Shown here piece by piece: positions 13,320 through 22,605 of a stretch of 45,199 nt of DNA. Source of the DNA: Lachnospiraceae bacterium (GTDB lineage Bacteria > Bacillota > Clostridia > Lachnospirales > Lachnospiraceae); contig JAFYZH010000018.1 in assembly GCA_017548765.1 (NCBI GenBank), positions 1 through 45,199 on the forward strand, given 5' to 3'. A program made the translations under genes and the position numbers. Within the stretch, counting starts at the first letter, position 1. Each line of letters starts with the position of its first letter. The notes beneath the pieces were generated by a model. The model made no database searches, was not told the origin of the DNA, and was given only the letters and a program-made list of their open reading frames with translations.

Positions 13320-13356
13320 TTGACAGAGGTAAATGAAAGTGTTATAGTACTTTCAT
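13320..13356 (+). promoter_or_regulatory. Strong promoter of the aromatic operon with overlapping inverted repeat
   Basis: Perfect -35 TTGACA (13320-13325), 17-bp spacer, -10 TATAGT (13343-13348). A perfect 8-bp inverted repeat, ATGAAAGT (13333-13340) and ACTTTCAT (13349-13356), brackets the -10 box with an 8-base centre. This is a good position for a repressor operator. The predicted start of transcription is near 13355. Confidence 0.8.
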
Positions 13357-13408
13357 CGGCGGTACAACACTTTAAACTGTAAAAGTGTAAAGCGACAAAC
13401 ATCCGCCG
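13357..13408 (+). other. Structured 5' end of the aromatic operon leader
   Basis: CGGCGG (13357-13362) pairs with CCGCCG (13403-13408), enclosing a second perfect hairpin, ACACTTT (13367-13373) with AAAGTGT (13382-13388). It begins at the predicted transcript start, so it may stabilise the leader or be a sensing element. Structure inferred by eye. Confidence 0.5.
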
Positions 13409-13463
13409 TCATCCGGGTGACCGGGTGGACAGAAAGACGACACTTGCGAAAGGACAGCGTAAT

Positions 13464-13553
13464 ATGTTACAATTAACGAATACAAAGTTTTATGCATATT
13501 ACTTTTACTTTCAGGGCTTTACCAAGAAGACCTGTTCCTTTTGCTGTGTCTGA
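13464..13553 (+). CDS. Phe/Tyr-rich leader peptide of the aromatic amino acid operon
   Basis: A 29-codon open frame with AAAGGA nine bases before its ATG and TGA at 13551-13553. Codons 9-16 read F-Y-A-Y-Y-F-Y-F, seven aromatics in eight, followed by QGF and a later Phe; in all five Phe and four Tyr codons and no Trp. It lies between the operon promoter and an intrinsic terminator placed just before pheA. The gene order and codon run match the logic of amino-acid leader peptides such as pheL, in which ribosome stalling at scarce charged tRNA prevents termination. The frame and codons are directly seen; the regulatory function is inference. Confidence 0.82.
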   Translation: MLQLTNTKFYAYYFYFQGFTKKTCSFCCV

Positions 13554-13587
13554 ACATCAACCTCAGAATACGATCATGTAGGATAGA

Positions 13588-13625
13588 GACCGGTGTTTGC
13601 GAGCAGCAAATACCGGTCCTTTTTT
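13588..13625 (+). terminator. Attenuator terminator upstream of pheA
   Basis: GACCGGTGTTTGC (13588-13600) pairs with GCAAATACCGGTC (13606-13618), a 13-bp stem with one G-U pair and a GAGCA loop, followed by a T-run at 13620-13625. It starts 34 bases after the leader-peptide stop. A candidate antiterminator is TGAACATC at the leader stop (13551-13558) pairing with GGTGTTTG (13592-13599) through several G-U pairs. A further stem, CGGTCC (13614-13619) with GGACCG (13631-13636), would form only in read-through RNA. Confidence 0.85.
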
Positions 13626-13649
13626 GTACAGGACCGATAAGGAGAGATC

Positions 13650-14648
13650 ATGGAAGACGTTAAGACGATCAAGGAAGATTTGAAGAAATTAGACAGCGAG
13701 ATCGACCGCCTCATTATGGAGCGGAGCCACCTGCAGGGGCAGTTGGCGGCCAGCCACACGAAGCGCGACAAACAGCGGACGCTGGAAGATAAGGTGCGCG
13801 AGGCGATCTACGCCGAGCCGGTCGCATTTCCCAGAAAGGCCTCGGTAGCCTGCCAGGGCGTTGCGGGCGCGAACTCGCAGATCGCGGCAGAGAAACTGTT
13901 CGCGACTCCCTACGAGATGTATTTCAAAACATTTGAAGGCGTGTTTTCCGCCATTGATAAGGGCCTGTGCGAATACGGCGTCCTGCCGATCGAAAACTCG
14001 ACGGCCGGCCAGGTCAATGCCGTCTACGACCTGATGATGAAATATCGTTTCTACATCGTGCGCAGCGTGCGCGTGAAGGTGGATCACAACCTGATGGTGA
14101 AGCCGGGGACGAAGAAGGAAGAGATCCGCGAGATCTTCTCCCACGAGCAGGCGCTGATGCAGTGCGCGGAGTACCTGAAGGGCTTCCCGGGCGTGAAGAT
14201 CACGGCGGTCGAAAACACGGCAGTGGCGGCGCGGATGGTCGAAGAGTCCGAGGATCCGAACGTAGCCTGCCTGTGCACACGGGCCTGCGAGGAGCTCTAC
14301 CACCTCGAGTGTTTGGAGAAATCCGTGCAGGATCACGGGGGCAATTATACGCGCTTCATATGCATTGCCCGCCACCTGCAGATCTTCCCGGGTGCGAACC
14401 GCACCAGCGTGATGGCCGTCCTGCCGCATAAGCCGGGCGCTCTGTTCCACATCCTGAAGCAGTTCGCGGATCTGGGTTGCAACCTGACGCGCATCCAGAG
14501 CCGTCCCATCCCGGAGCGGGATTTCGAATTCATGTTCTACCTGGATTTCGAGACCTCCGTCTACTCGGAGGAATTCACGAAGATGCTGATGAACCTGGCA
14601 ACATCATGTGAAGAGTTTGAATATCTGGGATCGTACATAGAACAGTAA
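13650..14648 (+). CDS. pheA: Prephenate dehydratase with vestigial chorismate mutase segment and ACT domain
   Basis: The enzyme converts prephenate to phenylpyruvate. Residues 63 to about 245 are the dehydratase domain (SVACQGVAGANSQIAA, IENSTAG, and the catalytic TRF at 234-236). Residues 250-332 are an ACT domain with GALF (263-266) and QSRP (283-286) in place of the ESRP Phe-binding motif, consistent with Phe feedback. The first 55 residues look like helix 1 of an AroQ-type chorismate mutase, but helices 2 and 3 are largely missing: the dehydratase begins some 40 residues earlier than in bifunctional P-proteins. Chorismate mutase activity is therefore doubtful and probably supplied by the fusion protein at 20294. 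AAGGAG lies five bases before the ATG. Confidence 0.88.
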   Translation: MEDVKTIKEDLKKLDSEIDRLIMERSHLQGQLAASHTKRDKQRTLEDKVREAIYAEPVAFPRKASVACQGVAGANSQIAAEKLFATPYEMYFKTFEGVFSAIDKGLCEYGVLPIENSTAGQVNAVYDLMMKYRFYIVRSVRVKVDHNLMVKPGTKKEEIREIFSHEQALMQCAEYLKGFPGVKITAVENTAVAARMVEESEDPNVACLCTRACEELYHLECLEKSVQDHGGNYTRFICIARHLQIFPGANRTSVMAVLPHKPGALFHILKQFADLGCNLTRIQSRPIPERDFEFMFYLDFETSVYSEEFTKMLMNLATSCEEFEYLGSYIEQ

Positions 14649-14715: not shown

Positions 14716-15717
14716 ATGATAGCAGTATTAAAGCCGGGCGTATCCGGAGAGCAGAGCGCAAAATTGATCGAATGGTTTGAGGAGCAGGGCGTTAAGGTCC
14801 ATGTTTCCAATGGTGAATTCCAGACCGTCCTGGGTCTGATCGGCGACACCAGCCGCATCGACGCGGAGTTGGTCGAGTCTCTGGATATCATCGAAAGTGT
14901 AAAACGCATCAGCGAGCCGTATAAGAAGGCGAACCGTAAATTCCATCCGGAAGATACCATCGTTGAGGCGGGCGGCGTGAAGTTCGGCGGCGGCAATTTC
15001 GCCATCATCGCGGGACCGTGTTCCGTCGAGACGCCGGAGCAGATCACCTATGTGGCACAGCGCGTGAAGGAGTCCGGAGCGGCGATGCTGCGCGGCGGCG
15101 CGTTCAAGCCCCGCACCAGCCCGTACGACTTCCAGGGCCTGCACGAAAAAGGCATCGAGCTCCTGCTCGAGGCGAAGCGCCAGACCGGCCTGCCCATCGT
15201 AACCGAGATCATGAACGCCGAGCATTTGCCGCTGTTTGAGGAAGTGGACCTGATCCAGGTCGGCGCCCGTAACATGCAGAACTTCGAGCTCCTGAAGGCT
15301 CTGGGTAAGACGAACAAGCCCATCCTTCTGAAGCGCGGCCTGGCAAATACCCTGAAGGAATTTTTGATGAGCGCGGAGTACATCATGGCAGGGGGCAATG
15401 AAAACGTCATCCTCTGCGAGCGTGGCATCCGCTCCTTCGATCCGGCGACCCGTAACGTTTTGGACCTGGCCTCGGTCCCGCTCCTTCATGAAATGACGCA
15501 TCTGCCCATCGTGGTAGACCCGAGCCATGCGACAGGTATCGCGAGACTGGTTGAGCCCATGTCCCTGGCAGCGGTTGCAGGCGGCGCCGACGGCCTGATC
15601 ATCGAGGTACACAACGACCCGCAGCACGCATGGAGCGACGGCGCGCAGTCATTGACCCCGGACCAGTTCGACGTGGTCAGTAAGAAAGTAAGAAAGATCC
15701 AGGCAGCACTGGCCTGA
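14716..15717 (+). CDS. aroF: 3-deoxy-7-phosphoheptulonate (DAHP) synthase, type I beta
   Basis: Catalyses the first committed step, condensing phosphoenolpyruvate and erythrose-4-phosphate. The 333-residue protein has an N-terminal ferredoxin-like regulatory domain (about 1-75) of the kind found in Thermotoga and clostridial enzymes. The barrel follows, with IAGPCSVE, RGGAFKPRTSPY, GARNMQNF, LLKRG and VVDPSHATG, the last four contributing substrate and metal ligands. No chorismate mutase domain is attached. Feedback control by Tyr or Phe through the N-terminal domain is likely from the family. It follows pheA after 67 bases with its own AGAGGA. Confidence 0.93.
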   Translation: MIAVLKPGVSGEQSAKLIEWFEEQGVKVHVSNGEFQTVLGLIGDTSRIDAELVESLDIIESVKRISEPYKKANRKFHPEDTIVEAGGVKFGGGNFAIIAGPCSVETPEQITYVAQRVKESGAAMLRGGAFKPRTSPYDFQGLHEKGIELLLEAKRQTGLPIVTEIMNAEHLPLFEEVDLIQVGARNMQNFELLKALGKTNKPILLKRGLANTLKEFLMSAEYIMAGGNENVILCERGIRSFDPATRNVLDLASVPLLHEMTHLPIVVDPSHATGIARLVEPMSLAAVAGGADGLIIEVHNDPQHAWSDGAQSLTPDQFDVVSKKVRKIQAALA

Positions 15718-15729
15718 GGAGGCATACAC

Positions 15730-16587
15730 ATGAAAACAGTTGGCGTAGTCGGTTTGGGACTGATCGGGGGATCGTTTGCAAAGGCATATCATGCGGACGG
15801 CGGCTGGAAGGTCCTGGCGCATGACCGCGACGAGTCGATCCTCGGGATCGCGCAGCTCGGCGGCGAGATCGACGGAAGACTTACTAAAGAAAATATCGGG
15901 AGCTGTGATCTGATCCTGCTCGCCCTGTATCCGGAGGCGACCGTGGACTACCTCACGGAGATGGCGCCGCACATCGCTAAGGGTGCCATCGTCATCGATG
16001 GCTGCGGTATCAAGCGCTTCGTATGCGAGCATTGCTTCGCCCTCGCGAAGGAGCACGGCTTTACGTTTTTGGGCGGCCACCCCATGGCCGGCCGGCATTT
16101 CTCGGGCTACAAATACAGCACGAAGACCTTGTTTAAGGACTCTTCGATGGTTATCGTCCCTGAGCATTTTGACGATATCGCGGAGCTGGAACTGTTGGCT
16201 CGCGTGAAGGAGCTTCTGAAGCCCGCCATGTTCGGCCGCATCACGATCTCCACACCGCAGCAGCACGACGCGATGATCGCATTTACCTCGCAGCTGGCGC
16301 ACGTGGTCTCCAACGCCTACGTGAAGAGCCCGACCGCCCGCTCGCACAAAGGATTTTCCGCGGGCAGTTACAAGGACCTGACCCGTGTCGCATGGCTCAA
16401 CGAAGACATGTGGACCGAGCTCTTCCTCGAAAACGGAGATAATCTCGTGAAGGAGCTGGATACGATCATCGGCAACCTCACGAAATATCGTGACGCCATC
16501 GCGCAGAACGATGCGGCGACGCTGCACGACCTGCTCGCAGAAGGCAAACATTGCAAAGAGGAGATTGACGGAAAGTTCAATCGATAG
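15730..16587 (+). CDS. tyrA: Prephenate dehydrogenase
   Basis: Oxidatively decarboxylates prephenate to 4-hydroxyphenylpyruvate for tyrosine synthesis. The 285-residue protein starts with a Rossmann motif, VGLGLIGGSFAKA, followed by LALYPEATVDYL and the active-site region GGHPMAGRHFSGY, with SQLAHVVSNAY in the helical C-terminal domain. It lacks a C-terminal ACT domain, so feedback by Tyr at the protein level is less obvious than in ACT-containing forms. It starts 12 bases after aroF with GAGGAGG in front. Confidence 0.92.
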   Translation: MKTVGVVGLGLIGGSFAKAYHADGGWKVLAHDRDESILGIAQLGGEIDGRLTKENIGSCDLILLALYPEATVDYLTEMAPHIAKGAIVIDGCGIKRFVCEHCFALAKEHGFTFLGGHPMAGRHFSGYKYSTKTLFKDSSMVIVPEHFDDIAELELLARVKELLKPAMFGRITISTPQQHDAMIAFTSQLAHVVSNAYVKSPTARSHKGFSAGSYKDLTRVAWLNEDMWTELFLENGDNLVKELDTIIGNLTKYRDAIAQNDAATLHDLLAEGKHCKEEIDGKFNR

Positions 16588-16595
16588 GAGGGTTT

Positions 16596-17666
16596 ATGTT
16601 AACTGTTACGGTCAATGCATCTAAGAAATACGATATCCTCATCGGCGGGGGCTTGCTTTCGCGTAGCGGTGAGATCGTCCGCTACCTGTACCGCTGTAAG
16701 ACGGCGGTCGTTGTGACGGACGACAACGTGGCGCGGTTTCACCTGTCGAAGGTGACGCAGTCATTCGAGTCGGCGGGATATCAGGTGCTGACGTATGTGA
16801 TCCCGCATGGCGAGGCGTCCAAAAGCCGCGAGCAGTATTTCGCTATCCTGGACTTCCTGGCGGAAAACCGCGTAACGCGCACGGATCTGCTGGTGGCGCT
16901 CGGCGGCGGCGTGGTCGGCGACCTCACCGGCTTTGCGGCGGCGACCTACCTGCGCGGCATCAAATTCATCCAGATGCCGACGACCGTGCTGGCGGCGGTG
17001 GATTCGTCCGTCGGCGGTAAGACCGCCATCGACATTCCGGCGGGGAAAAACCTGGTGGGCGCGTTCTATCAGCCCATCCTGGTCATCTGCGATACATTGA
17101 CCCTGAATACATTGCCCGATAGCGTATATGACGACGGCTGCGCGGAGATCATCAAATACGGATGCATCGCGGACGCGGAGCTGTTCGAGTGGCTGAAGAG
17201 CCCGATCCGGCCGCAGATCGATCGCGTGATCGAGCGCTGCGTATCCATCAAGCGCGACATCGTCAACCAGGACGAGCTCGACATGGGCATCCGCGCGACC
17301 CTGAATTTCGGCCACACCATCGGCCACGCCATCGAGAAGGCGTCGGATTTCACCATCACGCACGGCCAGGCGGTCGCGACCGGAATGGTGATGATCGCGA
17401 ACGCGATGTTTAGACTCGGTAAGGCGTCCGAAGCGACCTACGAGGCCATACGCGACATGGTGGCGGCGTACCGCCTGCCGGTGAAGACTTCCTTTACAGA
17501 GGAAGAATTATATGATACGATGACGACAGATAAAAAACGTTCCGGCGACCGGCTGCGTTTTATCATCGTGAAAGAAATCGGATCCTGCGAGTACCTCGAC
17601 GTGCGTGTCGAGGACGGTGGGGATGGCATCACACTGCGGAAAGTTCTTAAGGAGGCCTTGAAGTGA
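16596..17666 (+). CDS. aroB: 3-dehydroquinate synthase
   Basis: Converts DAHP to 3-dehydroquinate using NAD+ and a divalent metal. The 356-residue protein shows the family motifs: ALGGGVVGDLTGFAAATYLRGI, PTTVLAAVDSSVGGKT, the metal-ligand glutamate in CAEIIKYG, and LNFGHTIGHAIE followed by HGQAVA with the histidine metal ligands. Its length is typical. It starts eight bases after tyrA and its stop overlaps the GTG start of aroA by four bases, indicating translational coupling. Confidence 0.95.
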   Translation: MLTVTVNASKKYDILIGGGLLSRSGEIVRYLYRCKTAVVVTDDNVARFHLSKVTQSFESAGYQVLTYVIPHGEASKSREQYFAILDFLAENRVTRTDLLVALGGGVVGDLTGFAAATYLRGIKFIQMPTTVLAAVDSSVGGKTAIDIPAGKNLVGAFYQPILVICDTLTLNTLPDSVYDDGCAEIIKYGCIADAELFEWLKSPIRPQIDRVIERCVSIKRDIVNQDELDMGIRATLNFGHTIGHAIEKASDFTITHGQAVATGMVMIANAMFRLGKASEATYEAIRDMVAAYRLPVKTSFTEEELYDTMTTDKKRSGDRLRFIIVKEIGSCEYLDVRVEDGGDGITLRKVLKEALK

Positions 17667-18931
17667 ATATCAGCGTGAAGGTGGAGACACCGCAGGCGGG
17701 CTCTTCGAGCTTTACAGCGATCGCGTCGAAATCCATGGCGCATCGTTTTCTTTTGGCCAATGCACTGACCCGCCTGTGCGGCGGCGAGGGCGCCGAGCTA
17801 CTGATCTCGACGACCTCACGTGACATCGAAGCGACGCGCGACTGCGTTTCGGAGCTGCTGGCTCCGGAGGTTGAAGGCAGGCGGGCGCGCTTTTTGTGTC
17901 AGGAGAGTGGTTCGACGTTCCGCTTTTTACTGCCCATCGTGGGCGCTTTGGGGCGCAGGGGCTGCTTCGTTTTGGAGGGTCGTCTGAAGGACCGTCCGCT
18001 GTCTCCGCTTTATGAGGAGATGACGGCGCACGGTTGCATTTTATCGCCGCAGGGGACGCCGCAATTCCTGATCGATGGGCGTATGACCGGCGGCGTCTAC
18101 ACGATCGCGGGGGATATTTCCTCGCAGTATATCACAGGACTATTATTCGCGCTTCCGCTCGCGCGGGAGGACAGCGAGATCCATATAACCGGGAAACTGG
18201 AGAGCCGGGACTATGTCGAGATGACGTTGAAGGTCCTGGCGGCCGCGGGCATTCAGATCCGCCGGACCGACTATGGTTTTGCCGTGCCGGGCGGGCAGAA
18301 GTACGCGCTTTCCGGGCAGATCCGCGTGGAAGGCGACTGGTCGAACGCGGCTGTATTTTTGGCGCTCGGCGCCCTGACGAAGGGCGGCGTGACCTGTAAC
18401 AATCTGGACATCGACAGCGCACAGGGGGATAAACGTATCCTCGATGTGCTCCGCGGTTTCGGCGCGACCGTGATCGTGGATGCGCAGACGCAGAGCGTGA
18501 CGGTGCGACAGGATGCGGGGCTGCGAGGTATCGACCTCGATGTTTCGGATATCCCGGACTTGGTGCCGGTGATGTCGGTCGTGGCAGCCGGCGCGCATGG
18601 GGTGACACATTTTACGAATGCGTCGCGACTGAAGTTAAAGGAATCCGACCGGCTGGTGAGCGTGACGCAGGCGATCACGGCGCTGGGCGGTCAGGCGAGT
18701 CAGGACGGCGAGAGCCTGACGGTTTGGGGCGACGGGACGCTCGCGGGCGGCACGGTGTGTTCGGAAAATGACCACCGGATCGTCATGCTGGGAGCCCTGG
18801 CCGCGTTTATCAGCAGCGGGGCGGTGCGCATCGAAGACGCAGGCGCCATCGCGAAATCATTTCCCACGTTTTTTGACGAATTGAAAGAAGGGGGAGCACT
18901 CTATGGCATCGATATTCGGGAACAAGATTAA
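17663..18931 (+). CDS. aroA: 3-phosphoshikimate 1-carboxyvinyltransferase (EPSP synthase)
   Basis: Joins phosphoenolpyruvate to shikimate-3-phosphate. The 422-residue protein carries the N-terminal ASKSMAHRFLLANAL (PEP-binding lysine), ESGSTFRFLLPI, a central GDWSNAAVFLALGAL, SRLKLKESDRL and DHRIVM. The start is GTG within the GTGA overlap with aroB and has AAGGAGG upstream. The gene overlaps aroC by 29 bases. GESGSTFRF in place of the more common NSGTT is frequent among clostridial enzymes (family recollection). Confidence 0.94.
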   Translation: MNISVKVETPQAGSSSFTAIASKSMAHRFLLANALTRLCGGEGAELLISTTSRDIEATRDCVSELLAPEVEGRRARFLCQESGSTFRFLLPIVGALGRRGCFVLEGRLKDRPLSPLYEEMTAHGCILSPQGTPQFLIDGRMTGGVYTIAGDISSQYITGLLFALPLAREDSEIHITGKLESRDYVEMTLKVLAAAGIQIRRTDYGFAVPGGQKYALSGQIRVEGDWSNAAVFLALGALTKGGVTCNNLDIDSAQGDKRILDVLRGFGATVIVDAQTQSVTVRQDAGLRGIDLDVSDIPDLVPVMSVVAAGAHGVTHFTNASRLKLKESDRLVSVTQAITALGGQASQDGESLTVWGDGTLAGGTVCSENDHRIVMLGALAAFISSGAVRIEDAGAIAKSFPTFFDELKEGGALYGIDIREQD

Positions 18932-19973
18932 GGTATCCGTGTTCGGACAGTCGCATTCGGCGGCGATCGGCGTGACCGTGGACGGGCTGCCGGCCGGGAT
19001 CCGCGTGGATCAGGAGCGGCTGCTTAAGTTCATGAGCCGGCGCGCGCCGGGACGGGACCGTTTTTCGACACAGCGGAAGGAGGCCGACGCGCCGGAGTTT
19101 CTGGCGGGGCTGGTGGACGATGTCACCTGCGGCGCTCCTTTGACGGCGATCATACATAATACCAATACGCGCTCGGGCGACTACGATAACCTGCGGGATG
19201 TTCCGCGCCCCGGGCATGCGGACTATACCGCGCAGGTGAAGTATCACGGTTTCCAGGACGTGGCGGGCGGCGGCCATTTTTCAGGCCGGCTGACGGCACC
19301 CCTGTGCATCGCGGGCGGCATTTGCCTGCAATATCTGGAGGCACTCGGCGTGAAGATCTCGGCGCACATCGCACGGATCGCCGATGTCAGCGACACCGCG
19401 ATCGATCCGATGATCGCGGATGCTTCTGAAGTTTACGTCGGGGATAAGGCATTTCCCGTTTTGTCGGATGCGGCGGGCGAGAAGATGATGCAGGCGATCG
19501 ACGCGGCGCGGATGGACTTAGACAGCGTCGGCGGCGTGATCGAGTGCGTGATCACGGGACTTCCCGTGGGCCTCGGCGATCCGATGTTTGACGGGGTGGA
19601 GAACCGCCTGGCGGCGGCCCTCTTCGGCATCCCGGCGGTGAAAGGGCTCGAGTTTGGCGAGGGATTCGCGGCGACGCAGCTGCGCGGCTCCCAGAACAAT
19701 GACGCATACACCATGCAGGACGGACGCGTGGTCACGAAGACCAACCATGCCGGCGGCATCCTGGGCGGCATCACAAACGGCATGCCCGTGATCTTCCGCC
19801 TAGCCATCAAGCCCACACCCTCCATCGCAAAAGAGCAGGAGAGTGTGTCGTTTTCAGAACAGGCAGATAAGAAACTTTCCATCGTCGGCCGCCACGACCC
19901 CTGCATCGTACCGAGAGCCGTACCCGTGGCAGAAGCAGTAGCAGCAATCGTAGTAACGGACCTGATGATTTGA
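18903..19973 (+). CDS. aroC: Chorismate synthase
   Basis: Produces chorismate from EPSP, requiring reduced FMN. The 356-residue protein begins GNKIKVSVFGQSHS, the family's first signature in the FGQSHS form seen in Clostridia. It continues with RRAPGRDRFSTQRKE, GGGHFSGR in the active-site region, and the C-terminal RHDPCIVPRAVPVAEA. The ATG lies 29 bases inside the end of aroA, with GGGGGAG in front. Its TGA stop falls at the beginning of the first 62-bp hairpin repeat, so the array is part of the aroC 3' end. Confidence 0.95.
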   Translation: MASIFGNKIKVSVFGQSHSAAIGVTVDGLPAGIRVDQERLLKFMSRRAPGRDRFSTQRKEADAPEFLAGLVDDVTCGAPLTAIIHNTNTRSGDYDNLRDVPRPGHADYTAQVKYHGFQDVAGGGHFSGRLTAPLCIAGGICLQYLEALGVKISAHIARIADVSDTAIDPMIADASEVYVGDKAFPVLSDAAGEKMMQAIDAARMDLDSVGGVIECVITGLPVGLGDPMFDGVENRLAAALFGIPAVKGLEFGEGFAATQLRGSQNNDAYTMQDGRVVTKTNHAGGILGGITNGMPVIFRLAIKPTPSIAKEQESVSFSEQADKKLSIVGRHDPCIVPRAVPVAEAVAAIVVTDLMI

Positions 19974-20281
19974 AAAGACCTCCTGAAAGGCGGAAACAAC
20001 GAAAAAGGAGGTCTTTTCGGAGAGGCGAAATTTGAAAAGACCTCCTGAAAGGTCGAAACAACGAAATAGGCGGTCTTTTCAGAGAGATGAAATTTGAAAA
20101 GACCTCCTGAAAGGTCGAAACAACGAAATAGGCGGTCTTTTCAGAGAGACGAAATTTGAAAAGACCTCCTAAAACGCCGAAACAGCAAAATAGGCGGTCT
20201 TTTCGGAGAGATGAAATTTCAAAAGACCTCCTAGAAAGACAAATCATCAAAATAGGTGGTTATGCCTTCAAATACTCCGAA
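19972..20281 (+). repeat. Tandem 62-bp hairpin repeat array A (five units)
   Basis: Five units start at 19972, 20034, 20096, 20158 and 20220, each exactly 62 bases. Every unit has a left arm GAAAAGACCTCCT (CAAAA.. in unit 5), a 21-base A-rich loop, a right arm of the AGGNGGTCTTTTC type and a 15-base spacer. Unit 1 forms a perfect 13-bp stem. Units 2-4 share the same single mismatch in the right arm (AGGCGG), and unit 5 is decayed on its right side. It fills the gap between aroC and the aroE/K fusion and ends 13 bases before that gene. T-runs after the stems are only four long, so strong termination is uncertain. Confidence 0.92.
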
Positions 20282-20293
20282 AGGAAGAATGAA

Positions 20294-21796
20294 ATGCAAG
20301 AAGATATAAAGACATTGCGGCTGGCTATCGACCGCATTGACCGGCAGATCGCGGAGCTTCTGGAGCAGCGCATGGACGTTGTGTCCGGGATCTACGAATA
20401 CAAAAAGGCGAAAGGACTTCCGATTCTGGATCGCAGCCGCGAGGCGCAGAAGATCGAGTCGCTCCGCGAACTATTCCGCGCCGAGACCTATCCGTACGGC
20501 GCGCAGTGCTTCCAGGGTGTCATGGACGCGTGCAGAAGTTTTCAGGAGCAGAAGCTCGCGGATGAGGAGAAGCCTGCGCGCTACGGCCTGCTGGGTCGCA
20601 AGTTGGGGCATAGTTTCTCGCCGTACCTCCACCGGAAGTTCGGCGGCTACGAGTATGCCCTCTTTGAGCGCGAGCCGGAGCAACTCGAAGACTTCCTGAA
20701 GAACGGCGGTTTCACCGCGATCAATGTCACGATCCCGTATAAGAAGGCGGTCCTGCCGTACCTCGACGAGGTTTCGGAGACGGCGAAGCGCATCGGCAGC
20801 GTGAACTGCGTGGTACGCCGTGCGGACGGTACACTCTATGGCGATAATTCCGATTATTTCGGACTCAAATATTCCATCGAAAAGCATAACATCGACCTTC
20901 AGGGTAAGAAGGTCATCATCCTCGGGGACGGCGGCGCCGCTGCGATGGTGCGCGTGCTGGCGGCCGACCTCGGCGCCGCGCGCGTGGTCACCATTTCCCG
21001 CCACGGCGAGGATAACTACGACAATCTGGAGAAAAACCGCGACGCCGACGTGATCATCAACACCACACCGGTCGGGATGTTCCCGGAAAACGGCGTGAGC
21101 GTGGTGGATCCTACGTATTTCACAAATTGTAAAGTCGTCATCGACCTGATCTTCAATCCGGCGAAAACGAAGCTTCTGCTGCTGGCGGAGCAGGCGGGCA
21201 TGCTCGCGGTGGGTGGACTCGAGATGCTGACGGCGCAGGCGGCGCGCGCATGTGAGGTCTTCACCGGCGCGACGATCGCACGCGAGAAGATCGACGAAGT
21301 GTACGACGATATCGCGGCGCGCACGACGAGTATCATTCTCATCGGGATGCCGGGCAGCGGCAAATCTTCGGTCGCGAGAGCGATCGGCAGCCTGACGGGA
21401 CGTGAGGTGGTCGACAGCGACGTCGAGATCGAGAAGCGCACCGGCCGCACCCCGAAGGAGATCATCCTGGCGGATGGCGAGGACGCTTTCCGCAAGATCG
21501 AGACGGAGGTCCTCGCGGACCTGACGAAGCAGCCGGGCATCCTGCTGTCCTGTGGCGGCGGCGTGGTCGTCCGCCCGGAAAATGAAGCCCTGCTTAAGCA
21601 GAATGGTCGCATCTATTACCTGAAGCGCCCGCTCGAGCACCTGGCGGTCACAGGCCGTCCGCTGTCCGAGCAGCAGTCGGTGCAGCTCCTGTTTGCGAAG
21701 CGCCGCGCCCTCTACGAAGCATTTGCCGATGCGACCGTGGACAATGTGACCACGATCGAAGAAGCGGCTCAGACCATAGTGGACCTGCACTTTTAA
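20294..21796 (+). CDS. Trifunctional fusion: chorismate mutase - shikimate dehydrogenase - shikimate kinase
   Basis: A 500-residue protein with three recognisable enzymes. Residues 1-90 form a complete AroQ-class chorismate mutase (LRLAIDRIDRQIAELLEQR, YKKAKGLPILDRSRE, and a third helix around FQGVMDACRSFQ). Residues 95-340 are an AroE-type shikimate dehydrogenase: SFSPYLHR, NVTIPYK with catalytic K150, GDNSDYFG with D187, and GDGGAAAMVR for NADP. Residues 345-500 are shikimate kinase: Walker A GMPGSGKSS (351-359), DSD (374-376), FRKIE, CGGG, and the lid region RPLSE. All key residues are present. It performs two common-pathway steps and the Phe/Tyr branch-point mutase. ATG 20294 follows AAGGAAG by six bases; the longer frame from 20156 only translates the repeat array. 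Confidence 0.93.
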   Translation: MQEDIKTLRLAIDRIDRQIAELLEQRMDVVSGIYEYKKAKGLPILDRSREAQKIESLRELFRAETYPYGAQCFQGVMDACRSFQEQKLADEEKPARYGLLGRKLGHSFSPYLHRKFGGYEYALFEREPEQLEDFLKNGGFTAINVTIPYKKAVLPYLDEVSETAKRIGSVNCVVRRADGTLYGDNSDYFGLKYSIEKHNIDLQGKKVIILGDGGAAAMVRVLAADLGAARVVTISRHGEDNYDNLEKNRDADVIINTTPVGMFPENGVSVVDPTYFTNCKVVIDLIFNPAKTKLLLLAEQAGMLAVGGLEMLTAQAARACEVFTGATIAREKIDEVYDDIAARTTSIILIGMPGSGKSSVARAIGSLTGREVVDSDVEIEKRTGRTPKEIILADGEDAFRKIETEVLADLTKQPGILLSCGGGVVVRPENEALLKQNGRIYYLKRPLEHLAVTGRPLSEQQSVQLLFAKRRALYEAFADATVDNVTTIEEAAQTIVDLHF

Positions 21797-21901: not shown

Positions 21902-21975
21902 GTATATAGAAATGTAATTCAGGCCTTATTTGAATGCCTTTGAGCGTTAGACGGAATAGTGGAGGTGACGAAGCA

Positions 21976-22605
21976 ATGAAGAAGCGTCAAAAAGTATGCA
22001 TTATACTATTTGTTTCTGCCTTAACAGGGGTAATGCTGTGCGGATGCAGAAAAACGACTGCATCGAGTACCATAGAGACCACAGCGGAGACTAAGCATAT
22101 TGAGGGAAGCATAGCGGATGTTCCGGTCGGGGACGGAGTAAAAGAAGTAGTGATCGGTGATGAGGTTAAGATCATCACGCAGACCGGAAAGGAATACATT
22201 GCCCCGCTTAATAAAGTTGCGTCCGATGTCGGGATAGGCTCGTATACGGCGGCTGCGGAGCGGGAAAAGGCAAAGCAGGAAAACAGGATATTGCCTGCAT
22301 TTCCCGATGTAAAATTCCCGCTGATTTTTGAACGTCCGTTGCCCGAATGGGTGAAGGTGTACGGCGGTTATGCTGTCACAGAGGACGGACAGATACTCTC
22401 TCCGTCAATGAGCGGAGAGGTGTTCAGCGGAGCACCGGCTGAGACCATGGAAATATCGGCGGGCATGGATCCGGTCTACTTAAATAGCGATACGAAGGCA
22501 TATTCACAAGAACGCTACCAGGTGGTAAAGATCATTTTTGAAGTTGACGGACAGATGTATGAGAGCTATCTGTTCGGAAAGAAAGGCGGCGCGGAAACAG
22601 AATAG
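21976..22605 (+). CDS. Predicted lipoprotein of unknown function
   Basis: A 209-residue product starting MKKRQKVCIILFVSALTG with a lipobox-like LCGC that would place the lipidated cysteine near residue 24. A Thr/Ser/Glu-rich linker and a secreted domain with no recognised motif follow. It has its own promoter and terminator, so it is a separate unit inside the aromatic cluster. Base composition is visibly more AT-rich than its neighbours, with ATA codons that are rare elsewhere here, which suggests later insertion or transfer. GGAGGTGA lies seven bases before the ATG. Function cannot be assigned. Confidence 0.75.
   Translation: MKKRQKVCIILFVSALTGVMLCGCRKTTASSTIETTAETKHIEGSIADVPVGDGVKEVVIGDEVKIITQTGKEYIAPLNKVASDVGIGSYTAAAEREKAKQENRILPAFPDVKFPLIFERPLPEWVKVYGGYAVTEDGQILSPSMSGEVFSGAPAETMEISAGMDPVYLNSDTKAYSQERYQVVKIIFEVDGQMYESYLFGKKGGAETE

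Follow-up and report, generated by a model that had tools for sequence, protein, structure and literature searches.

The question raised by this locus is how a complete shikimate-Phe-Tyr operon is matched to the supply of its two end products in a Lachnospiraceae bacterium. Control of aromatic amino acid genes in Firmicutes is commonly ascribed to T-boxes, which answer uncharged tRNA by a choice between terminator and antiterminator, and to TRAP. Leader-peptide control is ascribed mainly to proteobacteria and actinobacteria; the enteric pheA (pheL) and pheST genes are under leader-peptide attenuators. In the window, as we call the whole analysed stretch of 45,199 nucleotides, the original prediction placed a Phe/Tyr leader-peptide attenuator before the operon. 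From sequence comparisons, we conclude that the region is very probably a ribosome-mediated transcription attenuator that would answer jointly to Phe and Tyr.

Anatomy of the leader region and its operon

The original prediction described a promoter, a 29-codon frame with a ribosome binding site, a 13-bp terminator with a six-T run and then pheA, and we found each of these elements in its place:

13320..13348, + strand: sigma-70 type promoter, TTGACA-17 nt-TATAGT with TG before the -10 element (11 of 12 consensus matches)
13449..13454, + strand: AAAGGA, the leader's ribosome binding site, 9 nt 5' of ATG 13464
13464..13553, + strand: leader peptide frame of 29 codons, MLQLTNTKFYAYYFYFQGFTKKTCSFCCV followed by the stop, from the sequence and kept in the four of four genus relatives with pheA
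13488..13511, + strand: regulatory codons 9-16 in the sequence, Phe Tyr Ala Tyr Tyr Phe Tyr Phe
13588..13618, + strand: intrinsic terminator hairpin of 13 bp with a loop of 5 (folding -22.1 kcal/mol), followed by C and then six T (T-run 13620-13625)

The run F-Y-A-Y-Y-F-Y-F and the lack of any Trp codon in the frame were likewise as predicted. Such a frame is not expected by chance: when the 347-nt intergenic region was shuffled 20,000 times by a first-order Markov model, no frame of 9-60 aa reached 7 of 8 Phe/Tyr codons and 12 reached 6 of 8. On neither strand of the 45-kb window does any other frame of this length reach 6 of 8 Phe/Tyr codons, and a terminator of equal score appeared in 0 of 2,000 shuffles of the intergenic region.

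The following genes, which had been predicted to form a seven-gene shikimate-Phe-Tyr operon, were all identified by Pfam:

13650..14648, + strand: pheA, prephenate dehydratase with an ACT domain and no chorismate mutase match (Pfam PDT and ACT)
14716..15717, + strand: aroF, DAHP synthase with a ferredoxin-like domain (Pfam)
15730..16587, + strand: tyrA, prephenate dehydrogenase (Pfam)
16596..17666, + strand: aroB, 3-dehydroquinate synthase (Pfam)
17663..18931, + strand: aroA, EPSP synthase (Pfam)
18903..19973, + strand: aroC, chorismate synthase (Pfam)
20294..21796, + strand: fusion of chorismate mutase, shikimate dehydrogenase and shikimate kinase, CM.aroE.aroK (Pfam CM_2, Shikimate_dh_N, SKI)

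For the fusion gene, the true start is probably ATG 20294, which comes after a tandem repeat array, and the mechanical open reading frame start, TTG 20156, is unlikely.

The -10 side of the promoter is recognisable by reading in the genus relatives. The promoter match by itself proves little, since a 1.4-kb scan found three promoter-like sites against a shuffle mean of 0.9. We also noticed two 7-bp inverted repeats with 8-nt spacers at 13334-13355 and 13367-13388, their centres 33 bp apart, which sit over and just behind the -10 element and by reading are largely conserved in the genus relatives; they are a possible operator. They could be taken to mean that control lies at the promoter, the terminator being constitutive and partial and the frame a small coding gene, with no regulation by Phe or Tyr at all. 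We regard this explanation as very improbable, as it leaves the aromatic codons, their match to the gene content and the antiterminator unexplained. In addition, three genus genomes have a single occurrence each of the second repeat (at most one mismatch), which is no commoner than chance, because a backward control pattern is equally frequent. Promoter control and attenuation need not be mutually exclusive.

Proposed switch between antiterminator and terminator

In the leader-peptide attenuator that we favour, two RNA strands would decide between the alternative structures:

13540..13558, + strand: 5' strand of the antiterminator, made up of 13540-13547 and 13551-13558 and running across the leader stop codon (folding; duplex test)
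13592..13612, + strand: antiterminator 3' strand (13592-13599 and 13605-13612), within the terminator hairpin (folding; duplex test)

The pairing of 13551-13558 with 13592-13599, overlapping the stop codon, had been predicted and was recovered, and its extent had been underestimated: it is half of the structure, and folding adds the arm 13540-13547/13605-13612, giving -20.4 kcal/mol for the two together. RNA polymerase would initiate near 13355 and a ribosome would load on the leader frame. With plentiful charged tRNA-Phe and tRNA-Tyr, the ribosome would arrive at the stop codon and cover 13540-13558, so that the 13588-13618 hairpin could form and transcription would end before pheA. When charging of either tRNA-Phe or tRNA-Tyr is short, the ribosome would pause in codons 9-16 and leave 13540-13558 free to pair with the emerging 13592-13612; both terminator arms would then be occupied and the polymerase would read into pheA-aroF-tyrA-aroB-aroA-aroC-(CM.aroE.aroK).

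Folding of the window's leader is consistent with these steps. With the ribosome at codon 9, 13 or 16 and the polymerase at 13611, the freed RNA is predicted to fold into the antiterminator, and a ribosome placed on the leader stop codon covers the antiterminator 5' strand. Once the complete hairpin has been transcribed, the terminator is the more stable structure; antitermination would therefore have to be kinetic.

Conservation within the genus

An alignment with related genomes had been proposed as a check on the prediction, and pheA is present in five of six genus genomes, the window's own included. In the other four the leader is present, with frame, aromatic run and terminator all retained, which supports the reading as a Phe/Tyr leader-peptide attenuator. 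The aromatic runs of these relatives differ by Phe/Tyr exchanges and synonymous changes only: codon 9 changes from Phe to Tyr, codon 10 from TAT to TAC, and codon 14 from Phe to Tyr with either Tyr codon. In two genus relatives the frame stops earlier, after KT, and the DNA TCCTTTTGCTGTG is retained 3' of the new stop, indicating that the RNA strand rather than the peptide end is conserved.

The retained strand also bears on the possibility that the nascent chain itself is sensed, by an arrest of the TnaC kind in response to the free amino acid, instead of codon-paced stalling by uncharged tRNA. The residues FQGF and CC near the end recur in the window's genus and in loci L009 and L047, as a functional peptide might. 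These C-terminal residues overlie the RNA strand that relatives read in other frames or carry behind the stop, and loci L004 and L006 lose the residues and keep the RNA. We therefore rejected the conserved C-terminal Cys as a functional peptide. Moreover, Phe and Tyr interchange within the run, and a biosynthetic operon that the free amino acid induced would be regulated in the wrong direction. Together these points make nascent-chain sensing highly unlikely, and codon-paced attenuation remains our preferred reading.

Leaders in wider relatives and across the class Clostridia

For a wider set, we used the best 80 of 582 confirmed stretches from a PheA-alignment scan of GTDB species genomes; they are mostly Oscillospiraceae with some Lachnospiraceae metagenome genomes, and they include isolates, e.g., Emergencia timonensis and [Clostridium] viride. 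Under a strict rule, which asks for a terminator and for F/Y/W at 5 or more of 8 codons, a leader was identified in 51 of the 57 loci with aroF in view and in 54 of the 80 overall, the operon start being out of view in 12 of these 80. Elsewhere on the two strands of these 1.35 Mb, the rule matched 8 places, none above 5 of 8, and in 2.70 Mb of Markov shuffles it matched one. A terminator without the aromatic frame had been named as a case that would speak against attenuation. It is absent from the four genus relatives. In the wider set, six of the 57 aroF loci fail the strict rule: four hold an aromatic frame but lack a called terminator, L086 is weaker, and L042 has the operon with no leader seen.

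The usual order among the best 80 of 582 is leader-aroF-tyrA-aroB-aroA-aroC-pheA-aroE.aroK-aroQ, and pheA comes first, right after the leader, in the window's genus and in L009. In 14 of 14 more distant loci of the family (L021-L034), whose operon starts are out of view, we found no leader directly before pheA; the operon starts of seven family genomes yielded seven further leaders (L145-L151). L086 as well as L057 and L110, with only 4 of 8 codons, were added to the leader collection by name, and the terminator of L012, where the rule made no call, was identified by eye.

AroF is present in at least 212 of 291 genomes of the class Clostridia. From the matches listed we took 102 high-scoring AroF places, not a random sample, two of which have less than 300 nt upstream, leaving 100. 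Among these high-scoring places, a leader with a terminator precedes 58 of 100, compared with 1 of 100 when the reverse strand is read; one of the 58 matches (L185) is probably spurious. Counting frames with at least 6 of 8 codons and no called terminator raises the number to 65 of 100 of the same high-scoring places, and the other 35 have neither a leader nor a strong aromatic frame; 20 of these 35 leaderless places had no Rfam match. The strict match occurs in 25 of 34 family labels among the high-scoring AroF places listed. A joint Phe+Tyr leader in Firmicutes had been expected to be unusual, and this part of the original prediction is overturned by its frequency in Clostridia, both in the related aroF loci (51 of 57) and class-wide (58 of 100). 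Some families have one Trp codon among the Phe/Tyr codons (L175, L178, L203, L210, L214, L215 and L218), as in the L218 leader YYFYFSWGYFYFSTGYFFC.

Comparative evidence for the two RNA structures

We compared the duplex between the region behind the regulatory codons and the terminator with dinucleotide shuffles in 130 leaders. It reached p ≤ 0.05 in 68 of the 130 and p ≤ 0.005 in 24, and 62 of 130 miss p ≤ 0.05; L002, which is nearly identical to the window, gave p = 0.025. The median extent of the antiterminator 5' strand in the 130 leaders is from -20 to +9 relative to the stop codon. In 49 loci this strand holds a common element, about TAAKRGYRATTTGTGCTGC, which by reading is translated as SDLCC or AICAA in different leaders and lies 3' of the stop in many.

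Covariation was followed in 20 sequences outside the window's own genus, picked by eye from 35 (of the 49 loci with the motif) for one common pairing register. In this selected set, 96.3% of the antiterminator cells are paired, compared with 29-60% in slid controls, and in 15 cells both partners have changed (0 of 500 shuffles); the terminator has 95.3% of cells paired and likewise 15 cells in which both partners differ (0 of 500 shuffles), counts that are favoured by the selection for a shared register and of a kind in which related sequences can surpass shuffles without structure. Antiterminator pair 8-73 occurs as GC, AU, GU and CG, and pair 9-72 as UA, CG and GU. The number of pair types in the 20 sequences is not above that of shuffles for the antiterminator (307 of 500) or the terminator (103 of 500). 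Since both hairpins share alignment columns, they are mutually exclusive.

At equilibrium, folding of the 130 leaders mostly favours the terminator at any ribosome position, with a median p_term of 0.95 with the ribosome at mid-run and 0.97 at the stop. p_term is higher at the stop than at mid-run in 100 of 130 leaders, by more than 0.3 in 19. Equilibrium p_term does not differ significantly from that with shuffled spacers (p = 0.088, n = 130), and equilibrium folding alone shows no switch.

Leader codons follow the genes of the operon

The codon content of the leaders matches the genes behind them. All 55 leaders over tyrA-containing operons have at least two Tyr codons, 239 Phe, 210 Tyr and 3 Trp in total, a tally with one duplicate, as L005 and L035 are, judged by length and leader, the same contig. 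L006, whose contig ends inside pheA, was counted as without tyrA in that tally and was excluded from later composition counts; here, the absence of tyrA means that none lies within the stretch in view. Where pheA stands alone, without other aro genes in view, six leaders directly before it contain 6-7 Phe codons each and at most one Tyr codon; these six seem to fall into about two related groups, and the sixth (L012) comes from the genome set. Among the best 80 of 582, 6 of the 11 loci with pheA and no other aro gene have no leader, one of them (L097) with less than 300 nt upstream.

The aroF-pheA leaders L020 and L155 have 9 Phe and 0 Tyr, and 7 Phe and 1 Tyr, respectively; L147 has 10 Phe and 2 Tyr, and L047, over an aro operon without tyrA, has 9 Phe and 3 Tyr. 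In other families, seven leaders precede aroF-tyrA with no pheA visible and sum to 35 Phe and 37 Tyr codons; for nine leaders over operons with both tyrA and pheA the sums are 69 Phe and 45 Tyr. In three genomes with a Phe-only pheA leader, a separate leader before aroF-tyrA-aroB mixes Phe and Tyr (L258, L254, L264); the aroF genes in the L012, L111 and L114 genomes (L257, L259, L253) have no called leader with a terminator. Weak cases for the match of codons to genes are L149, L234 and L239, at 40-45% Tyr and without a visible tyrA. As the leader codons differ with the operon content, nature seems to have run the codon-swap experiment itself, which makes these leaders a good system for studying how an attenuator changes its specificity.

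T-boxes, TRAP and a proposed division of labour

T-boxes are common for aromatic genes of Firmicutes, and the genome of the window itself has them before trpE (L229) and pheS (L280), both at the Rfam gathering score. A T-box has also been described before a tyrosine operon in the B. cereus group (accessible text of PMC2494555). A T-box riboswitch or a TRAP-type element, sensing tRNA or tryptophan directly and leaving the aromatic frame incidental, therefore had to be weighed for the leader itself. The known models fail there: the window has no T-box at the Rfam gathering score (RF00230), and around the leader Rfam gives just two weak unrelated matches up to E 5. A glmS fragment near the leader (E 0.25, below the gathering score) was taken as chance. 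A TRAP gene (PF02081) was found in 0 of the 5 genomes searched, with a positive B. subtilis control. Neither the window nor 20 class-wide upstream regions contained an Rfam leader, the latter giving only two tRNAs. Furthermore, a T-box needs no translated frame, in contrast to the window, where frame and codons are conserved. Direct sensing by either element is thus extremely improbable here, and we return to the translated leader.

At six trpE loci we found no Trp-rich leader, and four of the six have a T-box at the gathering score; a T-box is also present at six of seven pheS loci. An aromatic frame before pheS in L279 (4 of 8 codons, terminator in reach), the sole case in the seven loci, was judged irrelevant, lying 718-871 nt before the match. 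In the window's own genome, Trp synthesis and tRNA-Phe charging would be under tRNA-sensing riboswitches, and Phe/Tyr synthesis under the translated leader. A leader without Trp codons fits this division.

Of six hisG loci, three were compared with Rfam and gave no match. One of the six, L273 (genome G100, same family), has a frame MFCIFNHHHHHGITRL followed by a stop and then a terminator, 308-359 nt before the HisG match. This frame is likely a His leader-peptide attenuator and would be a second type in the lineage.

Relation to known attenuators

The mechanism of leader-peptide attenuation is classical, with single cases known from Firmicutes and their relatives. The enteric pheL and pheST leaders resemble the window in having a short frame with Phe codons, a terminator before the first gene and a logic based on ribosome position; they differ from the window, which mixes in Tyr codons and would control a whole shikimate-Phe-Tyr operon. 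The uORFC-13-1 motif of Acholeplasma likewise places a predicted frame, with one or more Phe codons, immediately 5' of a terminator and aroF (PMC8632094). In contrast to the window, it is described, in the accessible part of that source, by 24 representatives from one genus and environmental sequences, with no Tyr codons, operon or codon-content analysis (PMC8632094). The uORF candidates in the accessible part of PMC11109978 include none that is aromatic, and phenylalanine attenuators and tyrosine T-boxes are named for other species in that of PMC1262725.

In Bacillus, the accessible text of PMC2965389 gives a His leader before hisZ/hisS paralogues, where leader-peptide attenuation in Firmicutes replaces T-boxes; it differs from the window in the amino acid, histidine, and in its tRNA-synthetase family genes. 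The Leu-rich ilv-leu attenuator of S. aureus is, like the window, a leader over a Firmicutes biosynthetic operon and is experimentally supported in S. aureus, but it serves branched-chain amino acids and comes from another bacterial class (PMC5794164, in part). In the open-access literature, which leaves most subscription papers outside, we found no attenuator with a Tyr-codon leader and no account of this class.

We think it probable that the Clostridia hold a widespread, undescribed family of aromatic attenuators that includes the first Tyr-codon leaders. One kind of terminator/antiterminator switch would be retuned as the operon gains or loses genes, by swaps of Phe and Tyr codons and, in some families, of Trp codons too. 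It would thereby sense a shortage of either amino acid among the downstream products, with the trp and tRNA-synthetase genes of the same cell under T-boxes. A leader-peptide system before aroF in 25 of 34 sampled family labels, among the AroF places listed, would concern many gut bacteria.

Other features of the operon region

A lipoprotein-like frame (by reading), with no Pfam match at E 1e-5, lies at 21934-22605 between the aroE.aroK fusion and aroQ. Inside the operon, between aroC and the CM.aroE.aroK fusion, we observed a 62-bp tandem repeat of 4.4 copies at 19968-20238. Each repeat unit contains GAAAAGACC and GGTCTTTTC, which by reading could form a hairpin. Genome G002 has a copy of the tandem repeat on a further contig too. 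The closest relative, G004, has a longer array of about 790 bp at the same operon site, indicating that the copy number varies.
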